From Euborellia annulipes (taxonomy: Eukaryota; Arthropoda; Insecta; Dermaptera; Anisolabididae): DNA of 64,000 nucleotides. This document shows, one piece after another, positions 28,511 through 62,449 of this stretch. A model generated the notes under the pieces. That model was not told the DNA's origin. It did no database searches and worked only from the letters and a program-made list of their open reading frames with translations. The position numbers and the translations under genes were made by a program. The DNA is taken from positions 124,001 to 188,000 of the forward strand of contig JAKCPI010010606.1 of NCBI GenBank assembly GCA_023213315.1, read 5' to 3'. Within the stretch, counting starts at the first letter, position 1; each line of letters opens with the position of its first letter.

Positions 28511-28523
28511 ATTGATAATTTCT

Positions 28524-28901
28524 AAATAAGAACTTAAATATATAAAATTTAAGATATTATATACATCACGTATGTAAGCCGGGAGAGATATTTATATAAT
28601 TCCAATATTTATTAATTCAAATACCCAAAAAAATGCCACCGGGAATTGAACCACGGATCCATCAATTTGTACTCGATGTGCCCTTACCACTAGACCACAG
28701 CACGGCATTCGGATATATGAATTCACTCAGAAAGAAATTTTATTTATCAGGAGAAATGGACCCAAATTCTGCTCCACAAATGCCGTGCTGTGGTCTAGTG
28801 GTAAGGGCACACCGAGTACAAATTGGTGGATCAGTGGTTCAACTCCCAGCGGCACACCCTTACTTTTATCGGGCATTTGAATTAATAAATATTGGAATTA
28901 T
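28524..28901. mobile_element. Fold-back element E1: tRNA-headed inverted dimer, exact 13-bp TSD
   Basis: Flanked by ATTGATAATTTCT at 28511-28523 and 28902-28914; the bases just outside differ, so the duplication is exactly 13 bp. The left arm reads on the minus strand, the right arm on the plus strand. Both carry a tRNA-like head with an A-box (GTGGTCTAGTGGTAAGG) and a B-box (GTGGTTCAAYTCCC), then a tail TTGAATTAATAAATATTGGA. The left tail is longer (to 28524) and includes ACGTATGTAAGCCGGGAG. The heads face each other across a centre near 28690-28780. The open frame at 28633-28932 just runs through the arms. Interpretation: two SINE copies in head-to-head inversion, inserted in one event. Confidence 0.9.
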
Positions 28902-28920
28902 ATTGATAATTTCTTATTTA

Positions 28921-29531
28921 AACAATAGGTGACATGAGCAGGCAGCCAGGTTATTAGTCTCCAAGAAATAAAACTCTGTTTAGGAAACAGTTTCGGCTTT
29001 AATGAAATATCTCCATCTTCAGTCCCACAATCTAAAGTATGAACTCAAATGACAGAGCCTTGAGAGTTGTCAATTAGTGTGTATTATTATTAGGAACCGA
29101 CCGAATATTCGGTTTCTGTTACGGTTTCGGCCGTAGTTTCGGTTTCGGCCAAAAAGTAGCCGGAATCTGAGTCTGAAAAGATGGGATGAGACTCGCATGC
29201 AAAAAAAAAGTTAAAATAATTTGCAAAAGCTTTATTTCCAATAAAGTTTTTCATTTTCTTTTATAAAAACAATGAAATAATCACACGTAGAAAACGCATG
29301 GGTGGGACTTAATATTGACCCTCACTGTACAAACAATTTATGTATAATAATACACACTTCTCAAGGCTCTGTTATTTGAGTTCATACTCTCGATTATGCG
29401 ACTGAAGATGGCGATATTTCATTAAAGCCGAAACTGTTTCCTAAACAGAGAGTTTTATTTCGTGGAGACTAATAACCTAGCTGCCTGCTCCTGTCACCTA
29501 TTTTTCAAATACAACAGCATTTTAACCATTC
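28921..29531. mobile_element. Fold-back element E2, exact 13-bp TSD, with a nested insert
   Basis: Flanked by AATTTCTTATTTA at 28908-28920 and 29532-29544, exactly 13 bp. The left duplication overlaps the right duplication of E1, so E2 landed at E1's edge. The arms 28921-29085 and 29345-29515 are inverted copies (GCAGGCAGCC, AATAAAACTCTGTTTAGGAA, TTCATACT, AAGGCTCTGT). Each arm has the head CTGAAGAT followed by a GGC..GCC stem and GAAAC (plus strand 29402-29434; minus strand 28990-29022). The centre, 29090-29335, holds other repeats. Confidence 0.9.
29090..29335. mobile_element. Composite insert inside E2: TTTCGG-rich segment and M2 MITE end
   Basis: Bases 29097-29160 are rich in TTTCGG/CCGAAA words like 22632-22700. 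Bases 29236-29331 match the right half of MITE M2 (59205-59417), ending GGACTTAATATTGACCCTCA then CTGTA. The left half of M2 is missing. Boundaries are approximate. Confidence 0.6.
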
Positions 29532-29544
29532 AATTTCTTATTTA

Positions 29545-30470
29545 TAAAATTATTTTTATTTAGTCCAAACAAGTGAAGAATGAATGATGGTTGTTTTAAT
29601 GAAAACATCCAAGCGCTTGTTCTCAGATCCAAATGTTGCTCGCCTCCATCTTGGCTTGTTTTAATAAAAATTTGAATAAAAGATCTCCCGTCAAAAGGGT
29701 GATTTCAGTTAATATTCCTTTTTTAGAGGCAGTTCCGGGGAAATCGGAAGTGACATCGCCTCCACTCTGGTTTCTTTAATAGCATATAAACTTTTTACTC
29801 CTCTTTTCTAGCTTATTTCTCTTTGGAAGTAATAACTCGAGTTTGGATATTAAGTCAAACTATTCGTTAAATTTAAATTGTAAAAAGTTTTATTTTTTTT
29901 TTCTTGTTTGTCATCTAATTGTTTTCATGTGTCTGCTTGCATATCTGTAATTTTAAATGCTTTAAAGGTATTAAATCAAAGTCAAAACCATGAATCTGAG
30001 CCGGCTGTTTCTGACTCATTGACTGATACTGATTGATTGATTGATAGAAATTCCAGGATGTGAGAAACTTAAAATATGTTTTCGAATCAGTCTACGTTTC
30101 ACGATTAACATTTTTCTTTTAAAAGAAGAAAAAAAAAAGAAGAATTTCCTAAATTTTAGTTAATTTGCTCCATCGAGCAACATATATTTTCTTTGATTTA
30201 ACATTATAAAGTAAATAAAAATTATATTTTTATTCACTTGTAAAAAACATTCAAGTGTAAAACAAATGAAATTTATAATTTTAGAATAAAAATATTTAGA
30301 ACATCGTAAAAAAAAATATATCTTAATATCCATTTAGGCTTTTTAAAAATCTTAGGACAAATTCACTCTTTTGCATGGGCGTATCCAGCTCAAAACGGAA
30401 GAGGGGGAGGGGGAGTTTTCTAATATAAATTTTATTATTGTATTAAATGTCAGCCACCCGAACTAGAGAT
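29545..30470. other. AT-rich stretch, no gene seen
   Basis: No bounded element or exon was recognised. Confidence 0.5.
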
Positions 30471-30483
30471 AGCGGATGGCGTC

Positions 30484-30665
30484 CAGGGCCGAATCTAGGG
30501 GGACGGGCAGTGGGTGGCATGTGCCCTGGGCGGCAATTAAATAAAGATTTACTAAAAAAAAAAAAAGGTAAAATGATATGAATTTTGCATGGAAAATTTT
30601 AAGGAGGGGGCGGCAAATTAAATTAAGCCCCCTAAAAAATAAAAAATCTCCTAGTTCCGGCCCTG
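30484..30665. mobile_element. hAT-like MITE, 182 bp
   Basis: A perfect 8-bp target duplication ATGGCGTC lies at 30476-30483 and 30666-30673. The ends are CAGGGCCGAATC and (reversed) CAGGGCCGGAAC. Eight-base duplications with CAGGG ends are characteristic of hAT transposons. There is no coding capacity; the minus-strand open frame across it is chance. Confidence 0.92.
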
Positions 30666-30679
30666 ATGGCGTCACACAT

Positions 30680-32430
30680 AGTTTTTATCCTCCTAAAGGA
30701 TGGCGCGAATTTTTCAGTTTTATTTATATTTTTTGTTTATTTTTATTTCAAGTTTAGAAGAGGGTCAGTTGCCCCCCTTGCCCCTCCTCCTGGATAGTTT
30801 TTATGGAATTTTTTACCTTGTAATTTTTTTATTTATCAAACAGAGGCCTATTAATTATACTGTAATCTCTAGCCACTTAAGAAAGTTTTAAATTTTAAAA
30901 ATTCTGGAGGTGCCCAATTTTCTAAATTCTCTGGGCCACTTAGGATGAAGACTATTTCATTCAGGGATGGACGAAATTCTATTAGGGATGCCTATATTTA
31001 AAAAAAAAAAAAACTGAAAAAAAATTCGATTTTTCTACACTTTTAATTTGCACCACTAAATCACTTACGATTGGGCTGAAAATTTATATTTTAGGTATTT
31101 AATATTTAAGGGAAAATTCAAAATAGGAGCTGATTTAGAGCACATTTTCTATTAAAATTTAATTTTTTCTAGGGGAATCTATCTATTGATGGTATTTTTG
31201 AAATCAGGGCTGCCCAGTAATAGCTCTAAATTTCAAAGTATCAAAAAAAAAAAATGTTGGTTTGTGTAATTACAGATGTTCAAATTTTATAAATAAGAAT
31301 ATACTTTCTTTTATAATTACTATACTTGTTTTTCTTATATTTATTATTTAAAAGTACCGAAATATTCAAATTGAACTCATTTTAAATAATTTTATTTCGC
31401 GAAAAAGTTTTTTTTTTTTTAATATTAATAAATGATATGCATATTATCTTCATAATTAAAAATTTAATGGTTCATAAGTAAAACTTGAAACAAAGTTTCA
31501 TCTTAATTAGTTCTACCATTTTTACGCCATCTGCAAGCAACACACACACACACAGAGAGATAGACATCACTTAATGTTAACACGTTGGGGGAGGGGGTGG
31601 CGTGTTGCCTACAATAACTGTCTGTGTTGAGGGGTGGGAGACACACACACACACTTACTGTAGGCATCGTCCCAATTTTTATAACAATTGATCTATAATT
31701 TATCCCCTCTCTCTGTTTGTTTCAATTTTATTTATATTCATTTGAAATTCAAAAATTATTGACACGCGAGCCATAGTTTTGACAAAATGTTGTTAAAAAT
31801 AAAAAAAAAATAACAAAACCCTTTTCTTTTGAATATACACACAAATTAATCTCGTTTAATTGCCACCAATTTCTGTTATATACGAACATTTGTGATCCCC
31901 TTCATAATCACCATCATCTAAATCATCAATGATTTGTATTACTACATTCAATGATTTTATTTAGGGATTAATTTACCCCCACCTCCTAGCTCTATTGCAA
32001 ATCCTCTAATTGATTTTCTGCCATTTTTATTTGTGTCCAATGCATTAGTTTTATGCGTTTTCGCAGTCCCTCCCCCTTCACCCCCCCCCTGCATGTTTCC
32101 AATCTGAGAGAAGCCAATACCCTTTTTGTTGATTTCGTGAATCATTTTAGGACTCGTTTCTGAAGGTAAACCATTTCTCGTAAAAGGTTTACGACTATAC
32201 ACCCACGACATTTAACTTTGATTTTATGACTTTTGTAGCTCGTTCTCCAAAAAGCTCTTTTAGTTTTGAGACTCTCACTCGAAACTCTCCCAAAAACAAT
32301 ACAATAGATAGAATCTTTCTGTTTATTCTCAAATAAAAAAAAAAAAAACCTTTAATAATTCATCAGTCAATTAAAAAAAAGAGAAAAATATTTTTTTTTC
32401 TTTATAAAAACCTTTTGTGTTTTGTATTAT
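30680..32430. other. Stretch without recognisable genes
   Basis: CA microsatellites at about 31541-31553 and 31641-31652 bracket a G-rich stretch (31585-31640). A C-rich run lies at 32078-32090. Open frames here are short and featureless. Confidence 0.45.
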
Positions 32431-32439
32431 TGTAGGAGT

Positions 32440-33115
32440 TTTTAATTATTTTGTATTAATTATTTATTGGAAATATAAATACTGTACAACGTTTCGACTA
32501 CTTCTTCTGCAATCGTTCTCAAGCACGCTTGCCCCGATTCAAACTAAAGAATATTTACGTGAAGTTAGTAGCATTTTATAATCCATAACGTTACCAACAT
32601 AACATCATCCCCATGAAGTTAGACACCATTATCACAGCAAGTTCTTACTTAAAAATCATGATTGTTACAATAAGTTTTTTAAAAATGATTTTTACTAAGT
32701 TTGTAAAAAATACTATTACTAAATTATTCCATTAATATAATATAATAATCAAACCCTAAACTGTCATAAATATTAAGATTTTATATTAATTGAATAATTT
32801 ACTAATAGTATTTTGTATCATCTTTGTTAAATTTAAAAATTAAAATAAAAACTCATTGTAACAATCATTCTTTTTATGTAAGTACTTAGTATGATTATGA
32901 TGTTTAACTTCATGAGGATAATGCTCTATGTTGCTAAGTTCATTACATATAAAAATGCTACTCATTTCACTTAAGTGTCCCTTAGAGGTTAGATCGTTAA
33001 AGTCGGAGCAAGCGCGACTGCAGAAGAAGTAGTCGAAACGTTATACAGTATTTATATTTTTATTAAATGATTAACACAAAATGTGATTTAATAAATAAAA
33101 ACTCCCATAATACAT
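32440..33115. repeat. Large imperfect inverted duplication, GTCGAAACGTT head
   Basis: The left arm (GTATTATTGTAGGAGTTTTT to about 32640) mirrors the right arm (to AAAACTCCCATAATAC). Shared words include TAAATACTGTACAACGTTTCGACTAC versus GTAGTCGAAACGTTATACAG and the CATCATCCCCATGAAGTTAG stretch. The head is a CTGCAGAAGAAGTAGTCGAAACG segment (33019-33041). It is related to 18640-19085. The central 32690-32870 is itself AT-rich and partly symmetric. The borders show no certain duplication. Confidence 0.7.
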
Positions 33116-33119
33116 TTTT

Positions 33120-33652
33120 TCTATTTTCTCTCAGATAAGAAAATTGTTTAAGTATAAAAATTGTGAAGGAAACTTAATTTTAAAAATTGAAAATAATTTT
33201 CATATAAACTTATTGTATTTAATAAATTTCTAAAATGATTGATTATTAGCTACCCTCTTTTTTTAACGTAACACTCTGAAATCCCGAGTCGCTATTAATA
33301 AAGTAATATTTTGCATTTGCACCTCCATTTTGTTCTCTCTCATGGGGCTAATTTGCGAGCCTCCAGCGGATAATGGACCCGGCTGTTGGTTGACACCTTT
33401 CGGGAAATAAATTTCACTAACACTCTTCAACTGTGATGTGGATTTTACTTTATCTAATGGTGGAATTAATCTCATGCAATTATCTTCATTTATCTTAAAT
33501 ATATCATTATCAATGTAATTTTTTATTTATTCTTCTTTAATCGATTAATGTAAATGCCATCATCAATGAGAAATATAAATTTCTGCTCATTTAATAATAA
33601 GGGTAGTGAGTTATTTCTTTAGATATTTCTCATTCTTTCAAGATTTCCTCAT
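33120..33652. other. AT-rich stretch, no gene seen
   Basis: The minus-strand open frame at 33263-33475 lacks recognisable motifs. Confidence 0.45.
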
Positions 33653-33688
33653 TTATTTTTACTTTCTCTTGCCTATATATGTAATATA

Positions 33689-34218
33689 CGAGGGTAGGTC
33701 AATATATCCGTGACTTTTTGAATGAAACAGAGTTTTTTGATAAAAAATTATTTTATTTTTCAACGTAGTCTCCTTTGAGCACTATACACTTTGTCCAACG
33801 TTTCTCCAATTTTTTTTTTCTTCCAAAAATAAGATTTGTCGAGGACATCAAAATAGGTATTTGTTTGTGAGATTTCATCGTTGAAGTCAAATTTCTTTCC
33901 GCCGAGCCATTTTTTCAGTTTTGGAAACAAGAAATAGTCACTCAGGGCTAAAGACGGAGATTAGGGTGGATGAGGGAGCAATTCGTATTCCAATTCATGG
34001 ATTTTCGCCATGGAAACTGCATGTGTGCACTCTTGCATTGTCTTCTCAAATCACGAGGTAGTATGCTATTAATGGATGTCAAACAAAAACTAAAAGACCC
34101 AGCTGGTTCAAATTTCGACAGAAGTCAGCTGATAGTTGCCTGCTGACAGGAGCAGTGTTGCCATTTCAGTTAAGAGGCGGGAAATTAAAAAAATCATGGA
34201 CTTATTGACCTGCCCTCA
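33689..34218 (-). mobile_element. Mariner element, internally deleted, TA target
   Basis: Flanked by TA at 33687-33688 and 34219-34220. The ends are CGAGGGTAGGTCAATA and, reversed from the right, TGAGGGCAGGTCAATA. At 530 bp it is far shorter than the roughly 1.3 kb of complete mariners. It keeps the C-terminal part of a transposase on the minus strand and has lost the front. It lies inside an R1 copy and is therefore younger than it. Confidence 0.92.
33753..34050 (-). pseudogene. Mariner transposase C-terminal relic
   Basis: Translation of the minus strand gives a mariner-type C-terminus: ELLPHPP, an in-frame stop at 33961-33963, then SPSLALSDYFLFPKLKKWLG, GKKFDFNDEI, and a final LEKRWTKCIVLKGDYVEK ending at a natural stop (33753-33755). 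In mariners the SPDLAPSDY motif supplies the last residue of the catalytic DDD triad. Here that Asp position reads Ser and the preceding Tyr codon is a stop. The first two catalytic Asp and the DNA-binding domain are absent. It cannot make active enzyme. Confidence 0.93.
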
Positions 34219-34709
34219 TATATATAGAAAGAAATAGGTATTTCATTCATGTTCAAAATTCGATGTTGAGATTTTGACGGAAATACAAGTTTTGAGGTCC
34301 CCTGACTCCCGCAAAATGGTCTGTGATTAATTTTTTATTTATTTACTTGATAAAACTCCCAACAGGAGATTCCTAAAATAAAGTATGTAGGAAATGAGTC
34401 ACGAGGTTGAAATTTTATATTTAAGTTAGATACCTCACTGAGGCGCGAAAATATGCTTTTAAATAAAATCGGCCCAAAGAGTACTAGTACTTTACTGATG
34501 TACTTTTTTTCAGTTTTTTTTTTGATTTTCTCAAAATTCGCTCCAATGATTTTGATGAAAATTCATAAATCAATAATTTTTTAGATGCTCTTTAAAATGT
34601 ATATTCTTATTTTTTCGTGAAAATTGTTTGAAGCACACTTTACTCTTGTACTTCATAGAAAAGAGAAGAGAAATAATTGCTTTTTTAATTTAATTTATAA
34701 AATTTACAG

Positions 34710-35570
34710 ATTCTGAATTTACAGAAAATTTACATAAATTTTTCATTACTTATAAATTTCTTCTAAACTTCTATGGTATAAAATTCTTTAGTTTTAAAAT
34801 TAGAAATTCTTTCTTTTTTTTAATTCTTAATCGTCACTGTAAGATGATTTATTATATAAACAATAAAAATTTTAAAGACCACTCATTTGGCTTTCCTATG
34901 TAAACTTAAATAAAAAAAAATGACCAAATTATAAGAGATTGAAATCTTCATTTAGAAATGATAAACGCAAAATACACAAAAGAAAGAAAATTGAATTTAG
35001 TTCATTTTATTATGCATGAGTCAAATAAATGTTTGCTCTATTAACATTCTTTTTCTTTTGTTTCAGGTATGTTGGACGTCATCAATTTTTTTCTTTTTAC
35101 TTCTCTCTTTTTGAAGGTATTTATTTTGTCATTTTTAAATTAATTCTTTCATCTATATATTAGACATTCATTCAATGTTCCTTCGTTATATTTCTAAAAA
35201 AAAAAAAAATTTCAACATAATACGGTATGAATTTTCATTTACAAAAATTATCTTTGTTTTTACTTAATTGTTTCCAAGTTTGCAAAAGGATCATTCCATG
35301 TCAAATCATCTCAGATTTGGATGAGATTTTTTTCCTTTGTTGCTTGTACCATCCTTAGTAAGAATCCAAATTTATATTACAATATTCCTAATACTTTTTG
35401 AGAAAAAAAAAATCTTAAAAAAATGAGCTTGAGAAGCCTTTCCAAGACTCCTAGTTGAAGTGATATTTTTTAAAAAATAAATCATAACTCCCTTTGTTTT
35501 CAACATATCAACCTGAAATTTGCACTGAAATATTCAGGAAGAGATGCAGATTTAGAAAGAAAAATAAATT
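34710..35570. other. AT-rich stretch, no gene seen
   Basis: No bounded element or exon was recognised. Confidence 0.5.
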
Positions 35571-35587
35571 AATCATTAATTTTTATA

Positions 35588-35754
35588 GTTTGGAGGGAAA
35601 GTGGTGTAGGTTTTCCGTGAAACATATTTAGTTGTAAATGAATGAAATATTGAATTTCTAACTCGATATATTTCGGGCATATCGAGTTAGAAATTGAATA
35701 TTTCTTTCATTTACAACTTAGTGAAACCTCACATATCCTAAATAATTTTTACTT
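35588..35754. mobile_element. Fold-back element E3, exact 13-bp TSD
   Basis: Flanked by ATTAATTTTTATA at 35575-35587 and 35755-35767; neighbouring bases differ. The arms meet near 35678: TTTCTAACTCGATAT on the left and ATATCGAGTTAGAAA on the right, extending through GAATATT, TTCATTTACAACT and a CCTCACATATCCTAAATAAT tail. The left tail carries the start GTTTGGAGGGAAAGTGGTGT. The head is truncated at GCCCGAAATAT, so the CTGAAGAT half of the motif present in the sister element at 37902-38335 is missing. At 167 bp it is one of the smallest members. Confidence 0.9.
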
Positions 35755-36043
35755 ATTAATTTTTATATTAACTACCCTAAAAAACTACCCAAAATCAGTT
35801 TTTATCAAAGTTTTTGCATCAATGTTCAAATCTACTTTTAGGTCAAAGTCGATGTAGATAAGTAGGTCATTTTCTTTTTTTTTTAAATTACTCAGTAAGA
35901 TATGAATTTTAAGAATGTCAAATCAAAACAGTGGTTTTTTGAGGGATTATATATTAATTTTAGCCAAAACTATATTAATTCATTTAAACAAAGTAAATAC
36001 TTTGTAAAAGCATTAAAAGAACATAAATAAATGGTCATTTTAT

Positions 36044-36263
36044 AATGAAGAATTGGAGATATCAACCAAATTGGGATATCTATGTAAATAAAACTCCCAG
36101 AATAAAACGTTTCTGTCTGAATTTATTGGGCCATCTTCATTTATTGGGATTCAGGCCGAAACGTCTTATTCTGGGAGTTTTATTAACCTAGATAATCCCA
36201 ATTTGGGTGATATCTCCAATTCTCCATTATAATCTCATCACAGCCACAACCTCAAAAGCAACT
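36044..36263. mobile_element. Fold-back element E4, exact 13-bp TSD
   Basis: Flanked by ATGGTCATTTTAT at 36031-36043 and 36264-36276; flanking bases differ. The arms are inverted copies: GGAGATATCAACCAAATTGGGA on the left, TCCCAATTTGGGTGATATCTCC on the right, plus AATAAAACTCCCAGAATAA. The minus-strand head has GAAGATGGCC..(loop)..GACAGAAACG, and the plus arm keeps only the GGCCGAAACGTC half. The right arm has an extra tail TCATCACAGCCACAACCTC. Confidence 0.9.
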
Positions 36264-36379
36264 ATGGTCATTTTATGTTTCTCCAGATCCAACAGATCCT
36301 TAATTAATACTGGGTGTGGGGCTGACAGTGGCGTAGCTAGGAGGATGGGCGGAAGGAAGGTGCTCCGGAAAGTGCTACG

Positions 36380-36800
36380 AGGTTGAAATTTTATATTTAA
36401 GTTAGGTACTCCTTTTGGAATGTAACTTGAAGCATTTGAACAAAATCGGCCAAAAATACTAGTACTTTACTAATGTACTTTTTTAATTTTTTTCGATTTT
36501 CTCAAAATTGGCTCTGTCGATTTTGATTAGAATTCATAAATAAACTATTTTTTAAATGCTCGTTATATTGTATATTCTCATTTTCCCCTAAAAGCTGTCT
36601 GAAGGACACTTTACTCTTGTACTTCATAGAAAAAAAATATAAATATTTTTATGTTTAAAAATTTTATCTAAACATTTTATAAATATATTTCTATGTTTAT
36701 AAATTTTATTTAAATTCTAATATACTGCCGGAAACTAAATAAATCCAAAAATCTTGTGTGAAAGTACAGAACACAACTTTCATTTACCGAGTGTAAGAAA
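36380..36800 (-). repeat. R1 copy, minus strand
   Basis: Contains GGTTGAAATTTTATATTTAAG (36381), ACTAGTACTTTACTAATGTAC (36457), TACTTCATAGAA, and CGGAAACTAAATAAATCC (36729), with a degraded terminal hairpin ACACAACTTTCATTTACCGA (36769). A CAGTGGCGTAGCTAGG word at 36329 looks like a hAT end without a partner. Confidence 0.75.
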
Positions 36801-36884: not shown

Positions 36885-36915
<31 letters not shown>

Positions 36916-37862: not shown

Positions 37863-37878
37863 AACAATTAAGTATTTA

Positions 37879-38574
37879 ACAAGACTGAGTTTTTTTTTAT
37901 AGTTTGGAGGGAAAGTGGTGTAGGTTTTCCGTGAAACATATTTATAAGTAAAATTATTTAGTATATGTGAGGTTTCCCTAAGTTATAAATGAAAGAAATA
38001 TTGAATTTCTAACTCGATATATTACGGGCTATTAACCATTCTTCAGGAGTACATGTGACAGAAGTGAATAAAAGAGAATAGATGCTACCAGGCAGGCTTA
38101 GATTATTAAAGTCCTTCCTAGAAGAGGCAACCCCTCCATAAGCAACCCTAGTCTCAAGCAAACATTCATAAATTTTCCCAACTCCTATCTAACCCTGCCT
38201 GGTAGCATCTATTCTCTTTTATTCGCTCAGTACTCCTGAAGATGGGTTAATAGCCCGAAATATATCGAGTTAGAAATTCAATATTTATTTCATTTATAAC
38301 TTAGTGAAACCTCACATATACTAAATAATTTTACTTTTTTTTTATTTTATTGGCGAGGCCAAACATCCCATGGCCCCCGGGAATCGAACCCAGAATTTCC
38401 AGGCTTTCCGGGACATATCCTGGGTTGGATTCCCGGGGACCATAGGATGTTTGGCTTCGCCAATAAAAATAACACTCACAGTCTTGTTAAATATATCTAT
38501 GACTTGTTAAGTCCGAATCGAGGTATTTTGAATACTATTATCTTATTCAAATATATAGATCTCGAAAAATATTT
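37879..38574. mobile_element. Fold-back element E5: tRNA-like inverted dimer, 16-bp flanking repeat, with E6 inside
   Basis: AACAATTAAGTATTTA occurs at 37863-37878 and 38575-38590. The arms: ACAAGACTGAG...TTTTATTGGCGAGGCC on the left mirrors GGCTTCGCCAATAAAAATAA and ACTCACAGTCTTGTTAA on the right. The heads carry a B-box-like CTGGGTTGGATTCCCGGGG (38421) and its inverted partner CCCCGGGAATCGAACCCAG. Only the right arm has the further tail AAGTCCGAATCGAGG...GATCTCGAAAA, shared with 3095-3190. The left arm is split by E6. The 16 identical bases could be 13 plus chance. Confidence 0.85.
37902..38335. mobile_element. Fold-back element E6, nested in E5
   Basis: Same subfamily as E3: it starts GTTTGGAGGGAAAGTGGTGT and ends TACTAAATAATTTTAC. 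The arms mirror across a centre near 38150: GGCTATTAACC-TTCTTCAGGAGTAC versus GTACTCCTGAAGATGGGTTAATAGCC, and AGAGAATAGATGCTACCAGG versus CCTGGTAGCATCTATTCTCT. The plus head is CTGAAGA (38236-38242), T, GGG, a loop, CCC, GAAAT. The target was a T-run, so the duplication (about T9-A-T on both sides) cannot be sized exactly. Confidence 0.85.
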
Positions 38575-38699
38575 AACAATTAAGTATTTATGGTTTAGGT
38601 GTTTAGATTGCTGGCGTATTATTTATATTTGATTTAATTCTACAATATTTAAATTTTACAATTTGTCAATGTGATTTTAAAAATAATTTAAAAAACTGT

Positions 38700-40125: not shown

Positions 40126-40407
40126 AGTCTAGTCGGGACGACAGCCGCCATTTTCTTGTTCCTAAATGTAATTGCATAACAAATTCCATATTTTTCGAAC
40201 TCTGTTTACCCAACTTGCTTAATCGAATTGGAGGATGCAGCGTTTCGTTACAAATCCGTATTTAAAGAAGTTTCACTTCAAAAATAAATCAAATTCACAT
40301 CTATCATCTCAAATGTTAAAATCATTAGAGGCGTTATTTCTATTCAATCGCATCCCATTTGCCCTCGATGCAAGCTAAGATCAGCCAGCTGAATATTCTA
40401 AAATTTA

Positions 40408-40630
40408 TATAATTCCAATTTTTATTAATTCATATAGCCGAAAAAAGTGACGCCGGGAGTTGAACCACGGATCCTCCAATTTGTACTCGGAGTGGTCCGT
40501 GGATCAACTCCCTGCGGCACTTTTCTCGGCTATATGAATTAATAAATATTGGAATTATATAAATTTCCTTCGCGGCTTACATACGCGATGTATATAATAT
40601 CTTAAATATTATATATGTAATTTCTTATTT
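40408..40630. mobile_element. Fold-back element E7: tRNA-headed inverted dimer, sister of E1
   Basis: The arms mirror each other: TATAATTCCAATTTTTATTA versus AATAAATATTGGAATTATAT, and CGGGAGTTGAACCACGGATC versus GATCAACTCCCTGC. The heads are truncated before the A-box and meet near 40490. The right arm alone has the long tail with CGGCTTACATACGCGATG, as E1's left arm does. A possible 13-base duplication has two mismatches (ATTCTAAAATTTA at 40395, ATTCAAAAATTTT at 40631), so this copy may be older. Confidence 0.8.
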
Positions 40631-41019
40631 ATTCAAAAATTTTTAATTAAATCGTAATTTATATTCTTTGTTTGTTCTGTTGTGTATCATCTAGTCTAAT
40701 TATAAGTTCTTATGAAATGTATTAAATTTTATAACGGTGTCCAGTTGTGTTCCATGACAGTTTTACTCTCCCCCTGCCCACTCTCATTTTATTTTAATTA
40801 TCAAATATTTTAATTAAGGTTTTATAGACTTTAAAAGAGATGTAGCTGTCCAATTATTAATGAAGTTGATAATTCTCATAAAAAAAAAAAGATTTTGTTT
40901 AATTTACTAGAACATAAGCGGGCTTACAATTGAATACAATAGAGTAATTTTATAAAATTTGATCCGATTAGCATAAAGATGTATATATGGCTAATCAGGA
41001 AAAGCCCCGTCGATGATAA

Positions 41020-45393: not shown

Positions 45394-45414
45394 GCTCAGA
45401 GAGATAAATAAATA

Positions 45415-45700
45415 AGATTTAAACTTTCGACCGTTGGTTCTCGTTGAAACATTTTGTAAATTAAAATTAAATATACAAATTAAACACTAGGTTATTTGTT
45501 TCAAAGGTTTTATTAATTAAAAATTAACACTTGATACGTATTTCGACAATTTCTTGTCATCATCAGAAGTGATTACATTCTAATACGTATACGTAATACG
45601 TAATACGTATACGAAATACGTATCAAGTGTTAATTTTTAATTAATAAAACCTTTGAAACAAATAACCTAGTGTTTAATTTGTATATTTAATTTTAATTTA
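45415..45700. mobile_element. Fold-back element E8, 13-14-bp TSD
   Basis: Flanked by AGATAAATAAATA at 45402-45414 and 45701-45713; a 14th base also matches. A non-palindromic leader (45415-45456; ATTTAAACTTTCGACCG and GTTGAAACATTTTG) is followed by arms of about 90 bp: TTAAACACTAGGTTATTTGT versus ACAAATAACCTAGTGTTTAA. The minus head is CTGATGA (around 45565), T, GACAA, a loop, TTGTC, GAAATACG. The plus arm keeps only CGAAATACG. The centre has TACGTATACGTAATACG repeats. Its left target abuts the hAT MITE's right duplication. Confidence 0.9.
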
Positions 45701-45713
45701 AGATAAATAAATA

Positions 45714-46400
45714 ACACGAGGTTAAGTTTCCAAAGGATTTTATTTGAGCTTATGCTCTAATTAGATGATAATTTAATTAAATTTAATTGTCAACGGTAAA
45801 TTCTTTTCATCTTTTTTTATTTTTTTAATTTCTCCAATTTGTGAATAACTCCAATTATATAGAGACATTGGCAATATTTGAAAATTTTCACGACAAGTGG
45901 GATTTGAACTCGAATTGTGTAGCAACTGTTATCCGATTAGCCATGAGGCTCATTTCTATATTTCTAATGGAAAAATTCTTTAAAATGTCTAATTTTATTG
46001 GCCGCTCGCTCCTAATTACCCTTAAAGGGAAATAAGTTAATGTTTTGTGACAAACTCAGGCGAAGATAGATTTCAACTCATCTCTCGAAATCTATTAATA
46101 AATTTTATTAATAATAATGAAACATTTATACATTTGTTATTTTAAAAATTAAAAAAAAAAAAATCTTATAATTTTGATTATAAAATTGAACATTTTCCAA
46201 ATGCTTGACATTTTTATAAGGAAATTTGAATGCATTTACGTTGATGTCAATTTTAAAAGGACCTATAAAAATGTCTATATTTGTGAAATTTCCGAAAGTT
46301 TCAGCTTTTATCTTGGAGTATCAAACAAAATAATTTTTACCAAAAATTCTTTTTATTTAATAACTATTACTTTTTTTTTTCATTCAGAAATATGATAAAT
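45714..46400. other. AT-rich stretch, no gene seen
   Basis: The open frames at 45841-46035 and 46174-46395 have AT-driven composition and no motif. Confidence 0.45.
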
Positions 46401-46403: not shown

Positions 46404-46665
46404 CAGGGGCGTATATAGAAATTTTTTTGGGGGGGGGGCCCAAAAAATTTTTTTTGGGAAAATTTTTTTTTTTAAAAAAAAATTTTTTTTTCTCAAAAAA
46501 ATTTTTGTGGTGAAGATTTTTTTTTTAGGGAACAAACCAGTCCGTCCATCGTAAAGATTGTGTTGTTGTGGTGTTTTCTTTTTTTTCTTATATATGTGTG
46601 TGGGTTGGGGGGGGGGGGGCCCCGCCCCCCCCCCCCCCCCCCCCCTTACCCCCCCCCTAAATTAT
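46404..46665. repeat. Homopolymer-rich segment with a hAT-like left end
   Basis: CAGGGGCGTATATAG at 46405 is followed by long G, A/T, G and C homopolymers, including a C-run of about 22 bases near 46627-46648. A reversed CGTACCGAGAAAG-like end sits at 47608-47632 (GGTACGCCCTTG). The flanks do not match as a duplication, so a single element is not proven. Confidence 0.5.
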
Positions 46666-53627: not shown

Positions 53628-53629
53628 AG

Positions 53630-54710: not shown

Positions 54711-55376
54711 TTCATGCTCCTTAGACTAAAATTATAGATTTCTATCAACTTTTGGAGTAAATACGTCACTTGGAAGTAGTACTTTACCTAATAAGTTTTT
54801 TCAGAAATTTCGAAATTTTCAATTTTTTTATCATATTGTGATAAATTACTCTATTTTAAAAAAATTTTATTCTTTGACATTTTTTCAAAAACTAAATAGA
54901 TTTTTAGTTATCGAAGGTAATTTTTAAAATATTTTATTTTAATTGCTTGATATTTTTTTTTTTTAATGTTGAGTATAAAAAAATAACTTTTTTAAATTTA
55001 ATAGCTTCTGAAAAAAGGCAGGAAAAAATCGAGAAAATTCGGGTTAAGCAAGGCTAAGAACAGCTGGACCGTGGATAGGTGACCCGCTGAGTGTTGAGTC
55101 TTTCACCTGCTGGAAGCCATTTTATTTAATTTCCCAAAAGTCAAATGATCTTAGAGGCCGAAAAATAAATTGAAAATACAATTAACTTTAACACCCGTCT
55201 CAGGAAGAAAAATAAATAAATCCCACCTCAATAATCAATCAAAAGTTAGAATATATTTATTTCCTTTATTAAAATAATTTTTTCATATTCATTTTTTTTA
55301 AATATTTAATTTGTTTTTTTCTTCTAATTTGATGAATATAAAAAAAAACAAAAAACAAATAGTTTTATTACTTTTT

Positions 55377-55532
55377 ACTTTCTCGTACCCTTATATGAAA
55401 TATATAGAGAGAGAAAGTATTGGTTTCATGTCAAAAATTCGATGTCGAGATTTTGATGGATCTTCACGTTTTGAGGTCCCCTGAATCCAAAAAGTGGTTT
55501 TCGCGACATGGTCTGTCTGTCTGTCTGTCTGT

Positions 55533-55564
<32 letters not shown>

Positions 55565-56380
55565 TCAATTTTAAGCATGAAGGAATTGAGCTAGGAGGCT
55601 GAAATTTTATATTTAAGTTAAATACCCCCGGGACCGACAAAATAAGCTTTTAATCAAAATCGGCCAAAAAGTACTAGTACTTTACTGATGTACTTTTTCA
55701 GTTTTTTTCGATTTTCTCAAAATTCGCTCTAACGATTTTGATTAAAATTCAAAAATCAATTATTTTTTAGATGCTCTTTCAAATGTATATTCTCATTTTG
55801 CCCTCAAAATTGTTTGAAGCACACTTTACTCTTGTGCTTCATAGGAAAGATAGGAGAAATAAATGGTTGCCATGGTAACCGAATTTAAATCTTTTTCTTT
55901 TTATTAGATTAAAAATCAATTATTATTTAAACGCCCATTTTTTTTTTCGGAGAAAACATATCTCTCTCTCTCACAAAACTATCTTCTCTCTTTCTACGCG
56001 TTTTAAATTTTTCTACCTTATCTTCGCATTTGACCAATGTTAATTTCCTATAGGAATTTGTATGTTAATTTCGATTCAAAAGGGGTCCCCTTTGGAACTT
56101 TTTACGCATTTAAAATTTTTTTTTCCAATTCTTATGAAATTTTGTATTTATTTACGAATCTATATTGTGTATAAAATGTCCAAATATGAGATTAAAATTT
56201 TGAAAAATAACCATAGTTTATTTCAAGCAATCAACATTTAAAATGCAAGTTTGAAACTAAGGTGCTATGGAAAACTAAATATATCTCGACACAAAAAATC
56301 TGGTGTGACCAGCACAGTGCACAACTTTCTCTTACCGAAGGGTAAGAGAAAGTTGTGTGCTGTGCGCCAGTCACACCAGA
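55377..56380 (-). mobile_element. R1 copy with both ends and a readable empty site
   Basis: Inserted in block B where block A has an A8 run (16561-16568). On the minus strand it starts TCTGGTGTGACTGGCGCACA and ends ACGAGAAAGT, flanked by T8 (56381-56388) and T5 (55372-55376) on the plus strand. The first 90 bp are a near-perfect palindrome (TCTGGTGTGAC..ACTTTCTCTTACC and its inverse, 56298-56380). The body has the 'AGTACTAGTACTTTACTGATG' marker (55671) and GTCT and GT microsatellites (55515-55564). Subterminal inverted repeats in an A/T-run target recall Helentron/DINE-type elements. No coding frame. Confidence 0.88.
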
Positions 56381-57233
56381 TTTTTTTTATTTATGTCTTT
56401 TCTTAGAAAAGATGACGTCACGCGCATTGTTTGTGCACCAAGGACGGAGACTGAGCATCTTTAAGCGACTCTCTCCATCTCACTCGCACTCATTACCTTC
56501 GCTCTCTTTCTATTCAAATGCCATTCCAAAGCCTCTTATATACCACAATGTTTGAATTTTTGCTTTTTCGAGGAGGGGGGCGCCTCCCTCCCCCTCCCCC
56601 TCCCCCTTTAGGTTGGCCCCTTCGTGATATTTATGTTAATTTTATGAAATTTGTTTGATTAAATAAGATTAATTTCTTTTTAACAAAAGGGTTTATAGAA
56701 AGGACACCAGAGGCAGCACTTGCCGGCGGCGCCTTGTAATTTTGCACACATTCGCTTGCAAGGCTGTCTGTCTTTATTCAATTCGCGTCGCTAATAAAGA
56801 AAAATTTAATTATATACGTAACAATTTTTATTATTTTTTTCAGAGAGATTTAATTATTTAATTATTTAAATTAATTGGCTTTAATTTTTCATAAGGCAAG
56901 ACAATCAACTCTATCCAATTGGCAAATTGGATAAAAATTATTAAAATAAAAAAAATAATAAAATTTTTCAATTTTTTTTTAAACAATTATTTATTTAAAT
57001 CAAATCCTTGTTGCACAGTTTTGTTTTAAGAATACCTACCAAACGATTTTACTTAAACATAGGGCATACACGCATTCATTTATGTATATATGCGCTAAAA
57101 TAATATTATACAAATTCATTTGTTTATATTTACGTGTTTTTTAATGACACCTGTGTGATTTTGTTTGGATTTTTCTTTCCAAAATTTACGAAAAATGTCG
57201 TTTTCTTCGTTGATTATTTCAAAAACTATTTAA

Positions 57234-57382
57234 AAGAAATTAATGGCTGAGTGATAATAAACAGGAACAGGTAGATGAAGGCAGCCAGCAAAGAACAAAA
57301 ACTTTATTTAAATATCATCTTGACGATATTTAAATAAAGTTTTTGTTCTTTGCTGGCTGCCTTCATCTACCTGTTCCTGTTT
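57234..57382. mobile_element. Fold-back element E9, exact 13-bp TSD, empty site known
   Basis: Flanked by AAAAACTATTTAA at 57221-57233 and 57383-57395. Block A has a single copy (TTAAATAGTTTTT, 15451-15463), proving insertion. A 25-base leader is followed by a perfect palindrome of two 58-bp arms (57259-57316, 57325-57382) and an 8-base loop ATCTTGAC. The arms contain GGCAGCCAGC, AACAAAAACTTTATTTAAAT and ACAGGAACAGGTAGATGAAG. The absence of mismatches between arms suggests a recent event. Confidence 0.95.
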
Positions 57383-57760
57383 AAAAACTATTTAATTTTA
57401 GTAAAAATATCAAAGAATAAAAACTTTTTAAAATTGAGTATTTTATCATAATATAACAAAGAAATTGAAAATTTCGAAATTTCTTAAAAAACTTATTAGG
57501 TAAAGTACTACTTCCAAGTGATGTATTTACTCCAAAAGTTGATAGAAATCTACATTTTTAGTGTAAGGAGCATATACCAAATTTTATCCATCTAGCTGCT
57601 TTGGTTTTTAAGCAATCGTGTTCACACACACACTCAGATATAATGCCCAAAATGGTATTTTTGGACTCAGGGAGGTCTAAAACGTGAAGAAACATCAAAA
57701 TCTCGAAGTCGAATTTTTTTACGATTACAATACTTTCTCTCTACGAGAAAGTAAAAAAAA

Positions 57761-58360
57761 GGTTAACTTAAAAGTTTTTTAGATTTATTTAGAGTAATCT
57801 CATGTAAAAAATTACACATCTCAAGTTTATTATGACGAAAATGTCACTTTTGTAGACACAACTAATTTTCGCGAATAGTTAAATAAAATGACATTTTAAA
57901 ATTCTTTTTATTTCCTGTATTTTTCCGCTCGCTTATAATCCATTAAAACACATACACACACAAATATAACAGAAATTGTAAATCTTTTTAATTAGGCAAA
58001 AAAAAAAAAAAAAATCAAAATGAAATAGCCCATTGAAATGAGGGAAATTTCCTTTTGTTTGGTCAAGGCTGGTTTACCATCACACGTCCCTTCCGCCATC
58101 ATGTCACTATTTAATGGCAATCAATAGCAGTTTCAATGGATTGCAACCAAATGCAGCCGAATTTGCAGTCCTTGGATTATATATAGTACATGAATTAATT
58201 AAAGATCAAACGACCTCTTGGCTGATATTCGTTGAAATTGATTCTACTGAATTGGTTTAAGGCGATTAAGGCCCAGCAGAAAGGGGCTTTCATGTAGAAG
58301 AGGAATATAAATAAAATGTATTTATCAAATGCGCTCACTCATTAAATAACAACTTTTCTA
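57761..58360. other. Stretch without recognisable genes
   Basis: Poly(A) at 57999-58013. The interval 58060-58300 is less AT-rich and apparently unique, with no recognised frame. Confidence 0.45.
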
Positions 58361-58374
58361 TTTTTGCGAATTCG

Positions 58375-58450
58375 ACGAGTTATCCGAGCTAAGGCTGGTT
58401 TAACACTCTCCTTTTCTCCATGTCTCATCAAGGGTCAGCTTGACCCCAAT
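58375..58450 (+). repeat. Short dispersed repeat (family S), copy 4
   Basis: GACGAGTTATCCGAGCTAAG, GCTGG and a CTCCTTTTCTCC pyrimidine tract, as in the other three copies. Confidence 0.45.
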
Positions 58451-58863
58451 TTACCTGATTAATGACGATGGAGGAAGAACTTTAGGTTTATGGAAATTAA
58501 CTTTTTACAAGGATTTCTGTATTTGACTATTATCTAAAAAAAAAATCAGGTGTGACTGATCGCACTGCAAACAACTTTCCCTCACCTATAGTTCTGTTCT
58601 GTACTTGTCACACCAGATTTTTTGTATCGAGATATATTTAGTTTTCGAAGGTAGATTTCAAGTTGTAAAATCATTAAACAGAAAAATATTTATATTTTAT
58701 TACAATATCCTATTCTTTACTATGAAGTGTGCTTCAAAGAATTTTGAGGACAAAATGAGAATATACATTTTAAAGAGCATCTAAAAAATATGAATTTTAA
58801 TCAAAATCGTTAGAGCTGATTTTAAGAAAAGAACTAAAAAAGTAGAGCAATAAAGTACTACTA

Positions 58864-59152
58864 TTTATTAATTTTAAACTGGTAACCCTTGGCTCTAGTT
58901 GAAACATTATGCTCTAATAGGAGAATTAAATTCACAAGGTTTTCTGTTTCAATAATATATTAATTTGATATTAACACTTGATGCGCATTTCTACACTATG
59001 TGTCATCTTCAGAAGCGAATTACATACTGAATTATACTGAAGTATGTAATTCGCTTCTGAAGATGACACATAGTGTCGAAATGCGCATCAAGTGTTAATA
59101 TCAAATTAATATATTATTGAAACAGAAAACCTTGTGAATTTAATTCTCCTAT
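58864..59152. mobile_element. Fold-back element E10, exact 13-bp TSD
   Basis: Flanked by TAAAGTACTACTA at 58851-58863 and 59153-59165; neighbouring bases differ. A leader of about 50 bp (TTTTAAACTGG, GGCTCTAGTTGAAACATTAT) related to E8's is followed by near-perfect arms of about 110 bp meeting near 59031. The arms carry GAATTTAATTCTCCTAT, AATATATTATTGAAACAG and GCGCATCAAGTG. The plus head is CTGAAGA (59060), T, GACAC, ATA, GTGTC, GAAATGCG. The minus arm has the same with one change at the GAAA. Confidence 0.95.
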
Positions 59153-59204
59153 TAAAGTACTACTACTTTTTGACTCATTTTGTTCAAAAGCTTCGTCTGG
59201 GAGG

Positions 59205-59417
59205 TACAGTGAGGGTCAATATTAAGTCCCACCCATGCATTTTCTACTTGTGATTGTTTCCTTGTTTTCAAAAAAAATATTATATATTTATTTTTTAATG
59301 GAAACTTTCATGGTTCAAACCTAGAAAATTTCCCATTTTCATTTTCTTTTATAAAAACAATGAAATAATCACAAGTAGAAAACACATGGGTGAGACTTAA
59401 TATTGTCCCTCTCTGTA
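59205..59417. mobile_element. TA-site MITE (family M2)
   Basis: TA at 59205-59206 and 59416-59417. The ends are CAGTGAGGGTCAATATTAAG and (reversed) CAGAGAGGGACAATATTAAG, and the inverted homology goes on through CATGCATTTTCTACTTGTGA. Typical of Tc1/mariner-type MITEs. A half copy lies at 29236-29331. Inserted in R1. Confidence 0.92.
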
Positions 59418-59600
59418 CATAACTTAAATATAAAATTTCATTCGTTTTTGAGATATTTTCTTCACAGAAAAACAGATTTTTTTTGAGGAACCTACTTTTT
59501 TTGGGAACTCAAAACGTGTGTTTCCATCAAATTCTCGACCTAAACCAATACTTTCTTTCTCTATATATTAACACATCAATATATAGGTAAGAGAAAATAG

Positions 59601-60239
59601 AAAGTCGAATATTAATCTTATTTTTGTTTCTGAATTGATTTAAAGGACAAAATGATCTAAATCCTAAAAGTGGACTTACATTTATATGAAAACCAATATT
59701 TTATATATAGGCCTATAAAAAGAAAATTGGGCCCGCTAACCCCCGTCTCCAACTTTACCAACCTGATACGATTAAAATACTATTAAAAATGTTTCTCCAG
59801 CCAAATAAATTATTAATAGCTGGGAAATCTAAATCTTTAACGACTAAATAAATAAAATAAAAGTAGTGAATTCCCAACGAGCCATTTTTTTTTTTTTATC
59901 TCCATTAATTCTTTTATCAAAAGGATACTCAATTAACATTATCTTCATTTATGCAAATTCATTATTTCACACATTCTTTTTTTTTTTTATTTTTCCTCAC
60001 CTGTTGTTTTAATAAATAACGATTTACAAAATAAATAAGGTGTTTCCAAATACTTTTCTGTTTATTTAAAATTTAACGTTAATAAAAATTAAACAACTTA
60101 AATAATAATTATTTTTTGAATAAATATAAAAAACAAAAATTATTTTAATTCAATATTTTGTGAAAATATCTTACCTATAGTAGGGCAATATCAAAAACTA
60201 TTTTGCATATTAATTTTTTTTTTATGCAAAAAATAAACC
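59601..60239. other. AT-rich stretch, no gene seen
   Basis: Only AT-rich sequence and poly(T) runs. Confidence 0.5.
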
Positions 60240-60647
60240 TTAAGGTGCGCGTCTCGGGGTGCTAATTTTGGGAGGTTCCAGCGGCCACAATTTGAAGCTA
60301 TCGACCTCAAATTTTTTTTTTAAATTAAAGCTATTTAAAATATCTACAACTTATAGAAGCCCTTTTTTTTGATTTTCGAAAAAATAAAATTTTTTTTTTA
60401 GATTAATCGCATTAAATAAAAGATTATTTTTAAAAAAGGAGCTCTATAACTTATAGATAATTAAATTAGTAATCATTGTGTTAAAAAATAATTAATTTTT
60501 TACCCTTAATTAAATAGCTGGAATCTTTCAAATGAAATGGAATAAATCCCTTGTATTCCTATGGGAAAAACTAACGTCATCTCTTGACGCCTAGAGTAAC
60601 TCTGTAGTCAATCGTGTCCTAACGGTTTTTCGAGACGCGCACCTTAA
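60240..60647. mobile_element. TTAA-site MITE, long copy (family T)
   Basis: TTAA at 60240-60243 and 60644-60647 with perfect GGTGCGCGTCTCG ends. It lies in the opposite orientation to the copy at 43399 and is colinear with it (CTATGGGAAAAACTAACGTC and CAGCGGCCACAATT). No coding frame. Confidence 0.93.
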
Positions 60648-60649
60648 AA

Positions 60650-61222
60650 AAATGTGTACTGAGAAAAGAAGAAAAAAATAAGAATCCTTAAAAAAATCTT
60701 TGCGGGAAAAATTCCTAATAAATAAAAATAAAATTAAATCTTGTAGATGGAGTAAAGCAAGGGAATAGGGAACATATGAACATATCTAAAGGAAAAAATG
60801 TCTCCTGAGAGGAGTATGAGTATCACGAAGGTAGAAGGATAATGTTAGGCACCATCATAAAGAAATAGTAATAGAAGTAATGGGGGAAAAGCGTAGTAAA
60901 TGGAAAAAAATACTTGCTCATCTACCTGCAGCGATAAAGTTAATAGTTCAATAAACCATCTACATAGTTTATTTAATCTTGTTATATTACATATATTAAA
61001 GCAAGCTGAATTGGCTTAATGAGAATCTAAATTTATATTTAATTTAAAATTAAAATAAAGTTTTTTTTTTTTTTTAATTTCCAACAGAGTTGATTTTTAA
61101 TTCTATATTAATTAACTCTTTATTTATTTAATAAAAAAAAATTTGACTCATTATTTAATCAAAAACGAATTATTGCTAGAATAAAATTAAAAAAGAAAAA
61201 AAAATTAGTCTGTTAATATTTT
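60650..61222. other. AT-rich stretch, no gene seen
   Basis: Nothing was recognised. Confidence 0.5.
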
Positions 61223-61309
61223 TCACTAAATAAATAGATTAAAGGTTTCTGGATTTCTAGTAGTTTTTTTTTTCTTTTCAATTTATTTATTATTACTTAA
61301 TGTATTAGG

Positions 61310-61524
61310 CAAAGAGGGAAAGGGGTAATTATCCCCCCCCTCTCGAGATTAAAAAAAAAAATTTGGCAATTAATTTAAATTTAAAAATTAATACTTAAAA
61401 ATTTGATTTGCATATATATTCTGGTAAACAAGTACAGAATATAACTTAGAATGAAAAAAACATTGTGTGCGACCAATCACACCAGATTACCCTACCTCGA
61501 GAAACTGCTCTCCATCCGCTCTTG
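61310..61524. mobile_element. hAT-like MITE (family H2), copy 2, in E11's left arm
   Basis: Related throughout to 42519-42765 (AAAAATTAATACTTAAAAAT, ATATATTCTGGTAAACAAG, TCCGCTCTTG end). The flanks are GTATTAGG (61302-61309) and GTGCCAGG (61525-61532). The uninterrupted right arm of E11 reads GTGCCAGG here, confirming an 8-bp duplication that has decayed on the left. Confidence 0.85.
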
Positions 61525-61810
61525 GTGCCAGGGTCGACGTTTCGGTCGCTTATAGGACCATCCTCAAGGTCAAGGCATTGTAGATATTTTATCCTCTTGA
61601 TTGGTCATAATGGCATAAGACATTATAATAAATCCAATGACTAAATTCGATAGAGTGTAATATTTATCATGGACAGAGAAATTCTCTGTAGCCTATACAC
61701 TATTATTATTATTATACACACATTATTATATTAATATGTCTTATGCCATTATGACCAATGGAGGATCAAAATATTAACAATGGCTTGACTCTGAGGATGG
61801 TCCTATATGC

Positions 61811-62303
61811 CAGGGGTGGCCATGCTCCTTGATAATCCGAGCCATTTTTAAAATTTGAAATTTTTAGCGAGGTGCAATTAAATACATATTTAAAAGGTAT
61901 GAAAAAGGGATTAAATTTTTTTTTTACAGAAATATTGAAAACAAATAAAAGTACAAAATATGTGTATTGAATTTAATATTAAATTTTTTTTTTTATATTT
62001 ATTTAAGGGCTTTTTCGGCATCTGAAGCCATTTAGACCCCGTCCCTATTTATTTCATTTGATTGGTATCTAATTCAATTGAGATAAATTCTTGGCCTGGG
62101 ACGGGATGCCAACCCATGACCTATGGCACCAGAAGCTGATACTCTACCTCTGAGCCATAGCTCAAGGGCTATATTAAACATTTTAAACATTTATTTTACT
62201 TGTTTTGATAATTCTTTAAAATTTGGTGAAAACAGCACTTCTCAGTAACATTTACCGAGAGCCACAAATAATCCTTCAAAGAGCCGCAGGTTGGCCACCC
62301 CTG
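61811..62303. mobile_element. hAT-like MITE in E11's head loop
   Basis: A perfect 8-bp duplication CTATATGC lies at 61803-61810 and 62304-62311. The ends are CAGGGGTGGCCATG and (reversed) CAGGGGTGGCCAAC, with subterminal GAGCCATTTT and GAGAGCCAC-type words. It contains the SINE at 61984-62170. Without the SINE the length is about 300 bp. No coding frame. Confidence 0.95.
61984..62170 (-). repeat. tRNA-derived SINE (family N), copy 2
   Basis: The minus strand reads a 5' A-box (GAGCTATGGCTCAGAGGTAG), a B-box (GGGTTGGCATCCCG) about 45 bases on, CCCAGGCC, a body with ATTAGATACCAATCAAATGA, then an A-rich tail (T-run at 61984-61993). An 8-bp duplication ATATTAAA lies at 61976-61983 and 62171-62178. 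It shares head and body with 23595-23770. The parent tRNA was not identified. Confidence 0.92.
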
Positions 62304-62449
62304 CTATATGCGACCGAAAAGTCGGCCCTGGCACATTAAGTAATAATAAATAAATTGAAAAAATAACTACTAGCTGCTTAGCTCATTGGAGAAATCCAGA
62401 AACCTACATATTATCAGCTATACACCTCCACCAAACTAAATAAATAAAT

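Follow-up and report, generated by a model that had tools for sequence, protein, structure and literature searches.

The window considered here, that is, the whole stretch of DNA that was analysed, covers 64,000 nucleotides (64 kb) of the dermapteran Euborellia annulipes (contig JAKCPI010010606.1, positions 124,001 to 188,000), in which 31 inverted repeats were found and merged to 29 loci. Our subject is a set of twelve elements in it, each of them an insertion made of two copies of one sequence that stand head to head with their 3' ends outward, as an alignment of the left copy's sense strand to the right copy shows. In 10 of the 12, this arm alignment shows that one copy outruns the other by 25-72 nt; this additional stretch is called the tail here, the shorter copy stopping at the proximal end and the longer one at the distal end. 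Nine of the twelve look like short insertions of Penelope-like elements (PLEs), while the others belong to two families of short interspersed elements (SINEs), the tRNA-derived SINE1 and the tRNA-like SINE2. The motif named in the list is the hammerhead-like one described further below.

14350..14767, older PLE-type element (E14358): insert 14362-14755; 12-bp repeat with one mismatch; 34-nt tail on the right copy only.
28511..28914, tRNA-derived SINE1, head-to-head pair (E28511): insert 28524-28901; exact 13-bp duplications ATTGATAATTTCT at 28511-28523 and 28902-28914; 72-nt tail on the left copy only.
28908..29544, PLE-type element (E28908): insert 28921-29531; exact 13-bp duplications AATTTCTTATTTA at 28908/29532; motif in both copies; tail on the right copy only.
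35575..35767, member of the E37890 family (E35575): insert 35588-35754; exact 13-bp duplications ATTAATTTTTATA at 35575/35755.
36031..36276, PLE-type element (E36031): insert 36044-36263; exact 13-bp duplications ATGGTCATTTTAT at 36031/36264; 35-nt tail on the right copy only.
37864..38589, tRNA-like SINE2, head to head (E38345): core palindrome 38345-38468; 16-bp repeats 37864-37879 and 38574-38589; tail on the right.
37902..38338, PLE-type element, head to head (E37890): nested in the left arm of the SINE2; tail on the left; edges set by hand.
40394..40642, second SINE1, head to head (E40401): insert 40407-40629; duplications 40394-40406 and 40630-40642 with one mismatch; tail of about 69 nt on the right copy only.
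45402..45714, PLE-type relative of E58851 (E45402): insert about 45416-45700; 14-bp repeat; 41-nt tail on the left copy only; arms 100% complementary across 89 nt.
57221..57395, PLE-type by resemblance only (E57221): insert 57234-57382; exact 13-bp duplications AAAAACTATTTAA at 57221/57383; 25-nt tail on the left copy only; near-perfect palindrome whose arms stop inside or after the motif.
58851..59165, PLE-type element (E58851): insert 58864-59152; exact 13-bp duplications TAAAGTACTACTA at 58851/59153; motif in both copies; 53-nt tail on the left copy only.
61224..62446, PLE-type element (E61225): insert 61237-62433, interrupted by later insertions; 13-bp duplications mismatched at the first base; tail on the right copy only.

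At all six loci for which a preliminary description had named exact 13-bp flanking repeats, a letter-by-letter check found the repeat as claimed, with a mismatch directly before and directly after it. In its three weaker cases, the flanks at 45402/45701 are identical over 14 bp and those at 61224/62434 form a 13-bp repeat with one mismatch, while at 37864/38574 the homology of the arms permits the 16 identical bp to be split anywhere from about 10 to 16, so that 13 is possible only. Two loci absent from that earlier list were found by a search that presupposes one short and one long end, namely a 13-bp repeat with one mismatch at 40394/40630 and a 12-bp repeat with one mismatch at 14350/14756. 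The basis of the uniform 13 bp is thus six exact cases and three close to them (one of 14 bp, two of 13 bp with a mismatch), with two uncertain cases besides (16, ambiguous; 12 with one mismatch), and E37890, where an adjacent T-run obscures the duplication, gives no decidable length. Nine of the duplications, that of E61225 being left out, have an AT content of 77-100%. The arms had also been described as unrelated between subfamilies, and this has to be restricted, with E35575/E37890, E45402/E58851, E28511/E40401 and the loci E18643/E32448 being related pairs. As a separate observation, 7 bp belong both to the right-hand duplication of E28511 and to the left-hand one of E28908 (28902-28920), so one of these two elements inserted at the edge of the other's target.

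Low-complexity matches, such as a G-run of 13 bp at 46429/46610 and a T-run of 11 bp at 37890/38335, were excluded from the counts that follow. An exact flanking repeat of 13-14 bp is then present at 7 of the 29 loci and one of 9 bp at 4, with none of at least 9 bp at 18 (5237, 9532, 13043, 18643, 32448, 41546, 49656, 56293 and 59204, for example, have no flanking repeat, 18643 and 32448 resembling older PLE copies by eye). Under a stricter complexity filter, which drops 35575 too, repeats of at least 13 bp are found at 6 of the 29 loci. When random right flanks were used instead (400 sets), the loci with at least 13 bp numbered 0.10 on average and 2 at most, and flanks from different loci, mispaired on purpose, gave at least 13 bp in 6 of 783 pairings. 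The earlier proposal of a fixed 13 bp in the palindromes consequently stands for one part of them, since under the stricter filter exactly 13 bp is found at 5 of the 29 loci against a chance mean of 0.02 (maximum 1) in the random sets, and does not extend to the 22 of 29 without a 13-14-bp repeat. Chance repeats in AT-rich DNA are rejected by these controls for the set as a whole, though not for E14358 alone, whose 12-bp repeat is by itself not significant.

The one-sided tail is the second regular feature of these elements. In E35575 the distal (tail) sequence is on the left copy, the stretch around the proximal end having been skipped, while the right copy stops at the proximal end; in E38345 the left arm is interrupted by E37890, and this element was excluded from the alignment, its tail on the right copy being seen by eye only. 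If each copy chose its end freely, ten one-sided pairs out of ten should turn up no more often than about once in a thousand, with the reservation that one-sidedness was presupposed in the search for the duplications of E14358 and E40401; the six exact cases are free of that. A lone stretch at 27863-27899 matches the distal tail of E45402/E58851 and lies in no visible inverted pair.

The third feature is a minimal hammerhead-like motif, CTGAAGATGGC-loop-GCCGAAAC or variants of it, found in sense orientation in the arms of 7 of the 12 elements. In E28908, E36031, E37890 (CTGAAGATGGGTTAATAGCCCGAAA at 38237-38260), E45402, E58851 and E61225, stem II of the motif opens with an ATG; the related stretch in E14358 lacks it. 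These seven make up most of the nine PLE-type members, together with E35575, a relative whose arms are cut within the motif, and E57221, included by resemblance, in which the motif is not recognisable with confidence. Measured from the motif, the outer ends fall into two defined sets: the distance from its GAAA is 70, 74, 75 and about 80 nt for proximal ends and 102, 104, 106, 118, 128 and 129 nt for distal ends, and that from the ATG is 90, 91, 95 and 96 nt against 124, 143 and 145 nt, one copy of E61225 with a nested insertion being left out. By analogy with published PLEs, these outer ends would be the start sites of reverse transcription.

The folding energies of eleven tail regions do not consistently indicate excess stability (z from -2.3 to +1.35). 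In the PLE-type tails, of which eight were tested, there are helices that bracket the proximal end; their summed score lies above that of all 2000 shuffles, within a positional box that was chosen after viewing the folding results. These helices are TTGAAACA/TGTTTCAA in E45402 and E58851, which form one family, TGGCTG/CAGCCA in E57221, TAGCTG/CAGCTA in E61225, GTGAT/ATCAC in E36031 and GCTG/CAGC in E28908, and in E14358 and E37890 the best-scoring helix differs from the one read by eye. Taken alone, the helix is not significant in four of the eight (shuffles as good: E14358 497, E28908 716, E36031 519 and E37890 172 of 2000). Swapping bodies and tails between elements gave a mean helix score of 10.8 vs. 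14.4 for their own pairs, with some between-family swaps reaching 16, and CAGC is present in 5 of the 8 tails. We suggest keeping the bracketing helix in mind as a lead only, and not as a result.

Several of these traits have been described in PLEs that carry a GIY-YIG nuclease. In the Pen families of the rotifer Adineta vaga, as far as the cited description goes, inverted pseudo-long terminal repeats (pLTRs) stand mostly head to head, with an optional 31-bp tail on one of them (PMC3846280). In the Anolis PLE (PAc), the cited study describes a protein that cleaves and extends both strands at AT-rich sites, an open reading frame (ORF) beginning at stem II of the hammerhead, and reverse transcription that starts internally at two adjacent sites bounding the tail, most commonly 111-118 nt into the ORF (PMC11167929). 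The set in our window shows head-to-head inverted copies with a target duplication and a tail on one of them, and resembles the PLEs, so described, further in its 5' truncation, in the ATG at stem II of the hammerhead-like motif, in its AT-rich targets, and in the cutting and priming of both strands that its structure would call for. The statement of the preliminary description that no named family combines these features does not survive this comparison, given that PLEs share the head-to-head copies, the duplications, the one-copy tail and the two-strand cleavage, and that the motif is present in 7 of the 12; its choice of PLEs as the nearest analogue is borne out by the same motif and the published PLE traits, and its idea is supported that a cutting enzyme with a constant 13-bp offset works on several templates and produces copies standing head to head. 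What is left over after the match to PLEs is the uniform 13 bp, together with two tRNA-derived families having PLE geometry.

A second group of known elements is also close. Retrozymes and the Schistosoma Sm-alpha elements are, according to the sources cited, small non-autonomous elements with type I hammerhead motifs, and PLEs are named in the retrozyme paper as a strong candidate for moving retrozymes (PMC7229834, PMC6155905). Our PLE-type insertions resemble the animal (non-LTR, that is, lacking long terminal repeats) retrozymes and Sm-alpha in being small, non-autonomous elements with a hammerhead motif. Retrozymes, however, are described there as tandem repeats, whereas the SINEs of the window lack a hammerhead motif and form head-to-head pairs.

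We consider it probable that the elements of this set are short 5'-truncated insertions made by PLE machinery encoded elsewhere in the genome, and that this machinery also copied the RNAs of the two tRNA-derived SINE families. The machinery would be a Penelope-like telomerase-type reverse transcriptase with a GIY-YIG nuclease, two subunits of which would cut both strands of AT-rich DNA 13 nt apart and leave 3' overhangs. After the cut, both 3' ends, each with its 13-nt overhang, would serve as primers for reverse transcription, which would start within the element RNA at a proximal site for one end and at a distal, tail-including site for the other; the two minus-strand cDNAs would stop at variable 5' points and then be joined head to head, and the fill-in of the overhangs would make the 13-bp duplication. 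If both arms were target-primed, the outward tails and the duplication imply that the cut in the top strand lay at the right edge of the 13 bases and that in the bottom strand at their left edge. Should the tail without exception be confined to one copy, the two subunits of a dimer would have to use different start sites, and the simplest arrangement for this would be one RNA. For the Anolis PLE, the steps after first-strand synthesis are described as yet to be validated (PMC11167929). Were the proposed mechanism true, such short insertions would be a record of the finished reaction, from which the stagger, the polarity of the cut (3' overhangs) and the way in which the two start sites are paired could be read.

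Concerning the SINEs, those that are tRNA-derived and moved by long interspersed elements (LINEs) have a tRNA-like head with A and B boxes and a short non-coding body, and each of their insertions is a single copy, whose 3' end is LINE-like or rich in A. The SINEs of the window share the head (in SINE2 as read by eye) and the short non-coding body with them and differ in that both arms start at defined 3' ends, head to head. ARAGORN reports a tRNA-Cys(aca) on both arms of E28511, at 28631-28704 on the minus strand and at 28784-28859 on the plus strand, with Rfam tRNA scores of 25.1 and 23.8 bits, below the gathering score of 29. E40401 is 79-89% identical to it by segment, its arms ending inside the tRNA part, and the two SINE1 copies agree in their proximal end within 2 bp (GGAATTAT, with an additional AT in E40401) and in their distal end within 1-2 bp (CTTATT or CTTATTT), with the tails on opposite sides. 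SINE2 (E38345) has a B-box-like stretch, GGTTGGATTCCC, seen by eye, and was not reported as a tRNA by ARAGORN or Rfam; divergent SINE2 fragments lie at about 3090-3444, with A- and B-box-like stretches, again by eye, in a related fragment at 3340-3440. Two tRNA-derived families thus show the geometry of the PLE-type members, best seen in the copies at 28511 and 40401, and this suggests that PLE proteins move SINEs. In our estimate the chances are about even that these SINEs are parasites of PLEs, with their RNAs being copied from both ends of a 13-nt staggered cut, at a proximal and a distal start, into an obligate head-to-head pair. No PLE sharing the SINE tails was seen in the window, so the dependence on a PLE is a suggestion from the geometry; the SINE1 tail had 0 matches in viral contigs, a collection that may not include the window's own genome, and neither PLE-moved SINEs nor a 13-bp PLE duplication appeared among the matches listed in the open-licence literature, as judged by titles and abstract openings. 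If SINEs do take the PLE route, PLEs would stand beside LINEs in driving the spread of SINEs, and an explanation would be at hand for hairpin-like repeats such as these.

A number of observations weigh against attributing the set to PLE machinery. The duplications cluster at 13 bp here, whereas the rotifer PLEs, as described, have 8, 9 or 10 bp or no duplication (PMC3846280), and, unlike published PLEs, the insertions are short, with no coding region found in the window. Of the 47 ORFs with 75 aa or more, 10 were scanned with Pfam (longer ones, not strictly the ten longest; frameshifted remnants not sought), and neither a reverse transcriptase nor a GIY-YIG domain was seen among them; the scan gave three matches, all unrelated and below the cut-off, and no ORF of the window is above 128 aa. 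The copies are non-autonomous, and a coding partner would be located beyond the window. There are 17 matches to the motif pattern, 8 of them in element arms, vs. 1 to 8 in 20 local shuffles, and matches outside the arms are weak because as many as that arise in the shuffles. Rfam did not report any hammerhead family at E up to 5, its models perhaps missing the minimal versions that PLE hammerheads are described to be (PMC6155905); microRNA families, its best matches to the hairpins, were all below the gathering score and were not taken as meaningful. The hammerhead-like motif was not found in the SINEs, and the bracketing helix is absent from their tails. Finally, in the search that presupposes one short and one long end, which covered 25 of the 31 inverted repeats, each in two geometries, the repeats of E40401 (score 9.5) and E14358 (8.5) are near chance, with random pairs (n=1389) scoring at least 13 in 3 cases, at least 9 in 68 and at least 8.5 in 82, and with the unrelated G- and T-rich locus 46440 likewise scoring 9.5. 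The duplication of E40401 gains support because its edges fall within 1-2 bp of those of E28511, where 12 of 13 flanking bases match, a match reached, with shifts up to 2, in 5 of 20000 random place pairs; this edge test is only partly independent given that the edges of E40401 were set from the repeat.

Among the alternatives, the one that survives best is that another enzyme of similar geometry moved the SINEs, with only the hammerhead-bearing members being PLE-derived, which is compatible with a PLE origin of the PLE-type members. The SINE1 tails are longer (69-72 nt) and poorer in C than most PLE-type tails and lack both helix and motif, as this alternative would have it; yet the PLE-type members and the two copies of SINE1 have in common the duplication of 13 bp, the head-to-head arrangement and a tail on one side only, and we regard a separate enzyme as possible, though rather unlikely. 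A second alternative concerns the origin of the second arm: the PLE template would fold back at a palindrome, the second arm being copied from the first, and only one DNA end would be target-primed. Such self-priming on an antisense template was proposed for rotifer PLEs from their junction palindromes, according to the cited description (PMC3846280), and near-perfect junction palindromes are present here too, with 2 nt between the arms at 57258-57383 and 12 nt at 58912-59157. A fold-back copy should, however, give equal outer ends, and these differ in the 11 elements aligned (E38345 left out), with spacers of 177 and 271 nt also being long for a fold-back loop, all of which makes self-priming improbable in our judgement.

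LINE-driven insertion with twin priming, including that of the SINEs, is weaker still. LINEs leave target duplications and sometimes 5' inversions, twin priming being the process that inverts the 5' part of one copy. In our elements, two overlapping copies both begin at 3' ends with the tails outward, and there is no poly(A) tail at the aligned element ends, the T-run beside E37890 being impossible to assign. As for the length of the duplication, in one cell line, according to the cited work, it was 15 bp for human L1 and 5 bp for zebrafish ZfL2-1 (PMC4245944), and a characteristic length is therefore not specific to PLEs; even so, we hold the LINE route to be very unlikely. For fold-back or MITE-like (miniature inverted-repeat) DNA transposons, whose transposase would duplicate 13 bp of the target, one would expect a fixed duplication length and inverted arms, and the hairpin repeats 56293 and 59204 of the window look MITE-like, but this most improbable of the four is largely refuted by the end asymmetry, the tail preventing the two ends from being inverted copies of one another, with the arms also being cut at variable inner points and the motif and the tRNA parts marking RNA templates.

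Other repeats neighbour or interrupt the elements described. A family of short near-perfect hairpins, MITE-like and without a 13-bp flank, is represented at 56293-56386 and, by eye, at about 58536-58625 and at 36760-36800. Within E28908, the inter-arm stretch 29248-29331 (84 bp) is 94% identical to 59336-59419, part of the hairpin 59204-59418, so, judging from this identity, the element carries a foreign piece between its arms. In E61225, a 493-bp insertion at 61811-62303 (region 61803-62311) lies inside the hammerhead-like stem of the right copy and is bounded by perfect terminal inverted repeats of 12 bp, CAGGGGTGGCCA, with a duplication of 8 bp, CTATATGC, features by which we take it to be hAT-like. 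Inside this insertion, at about 62042-62213 on the minus strand, is a third tRNA-like SINE fragment with boxes recognised by eye, and a relative of it, 78% identical, lies at 23641-23808.

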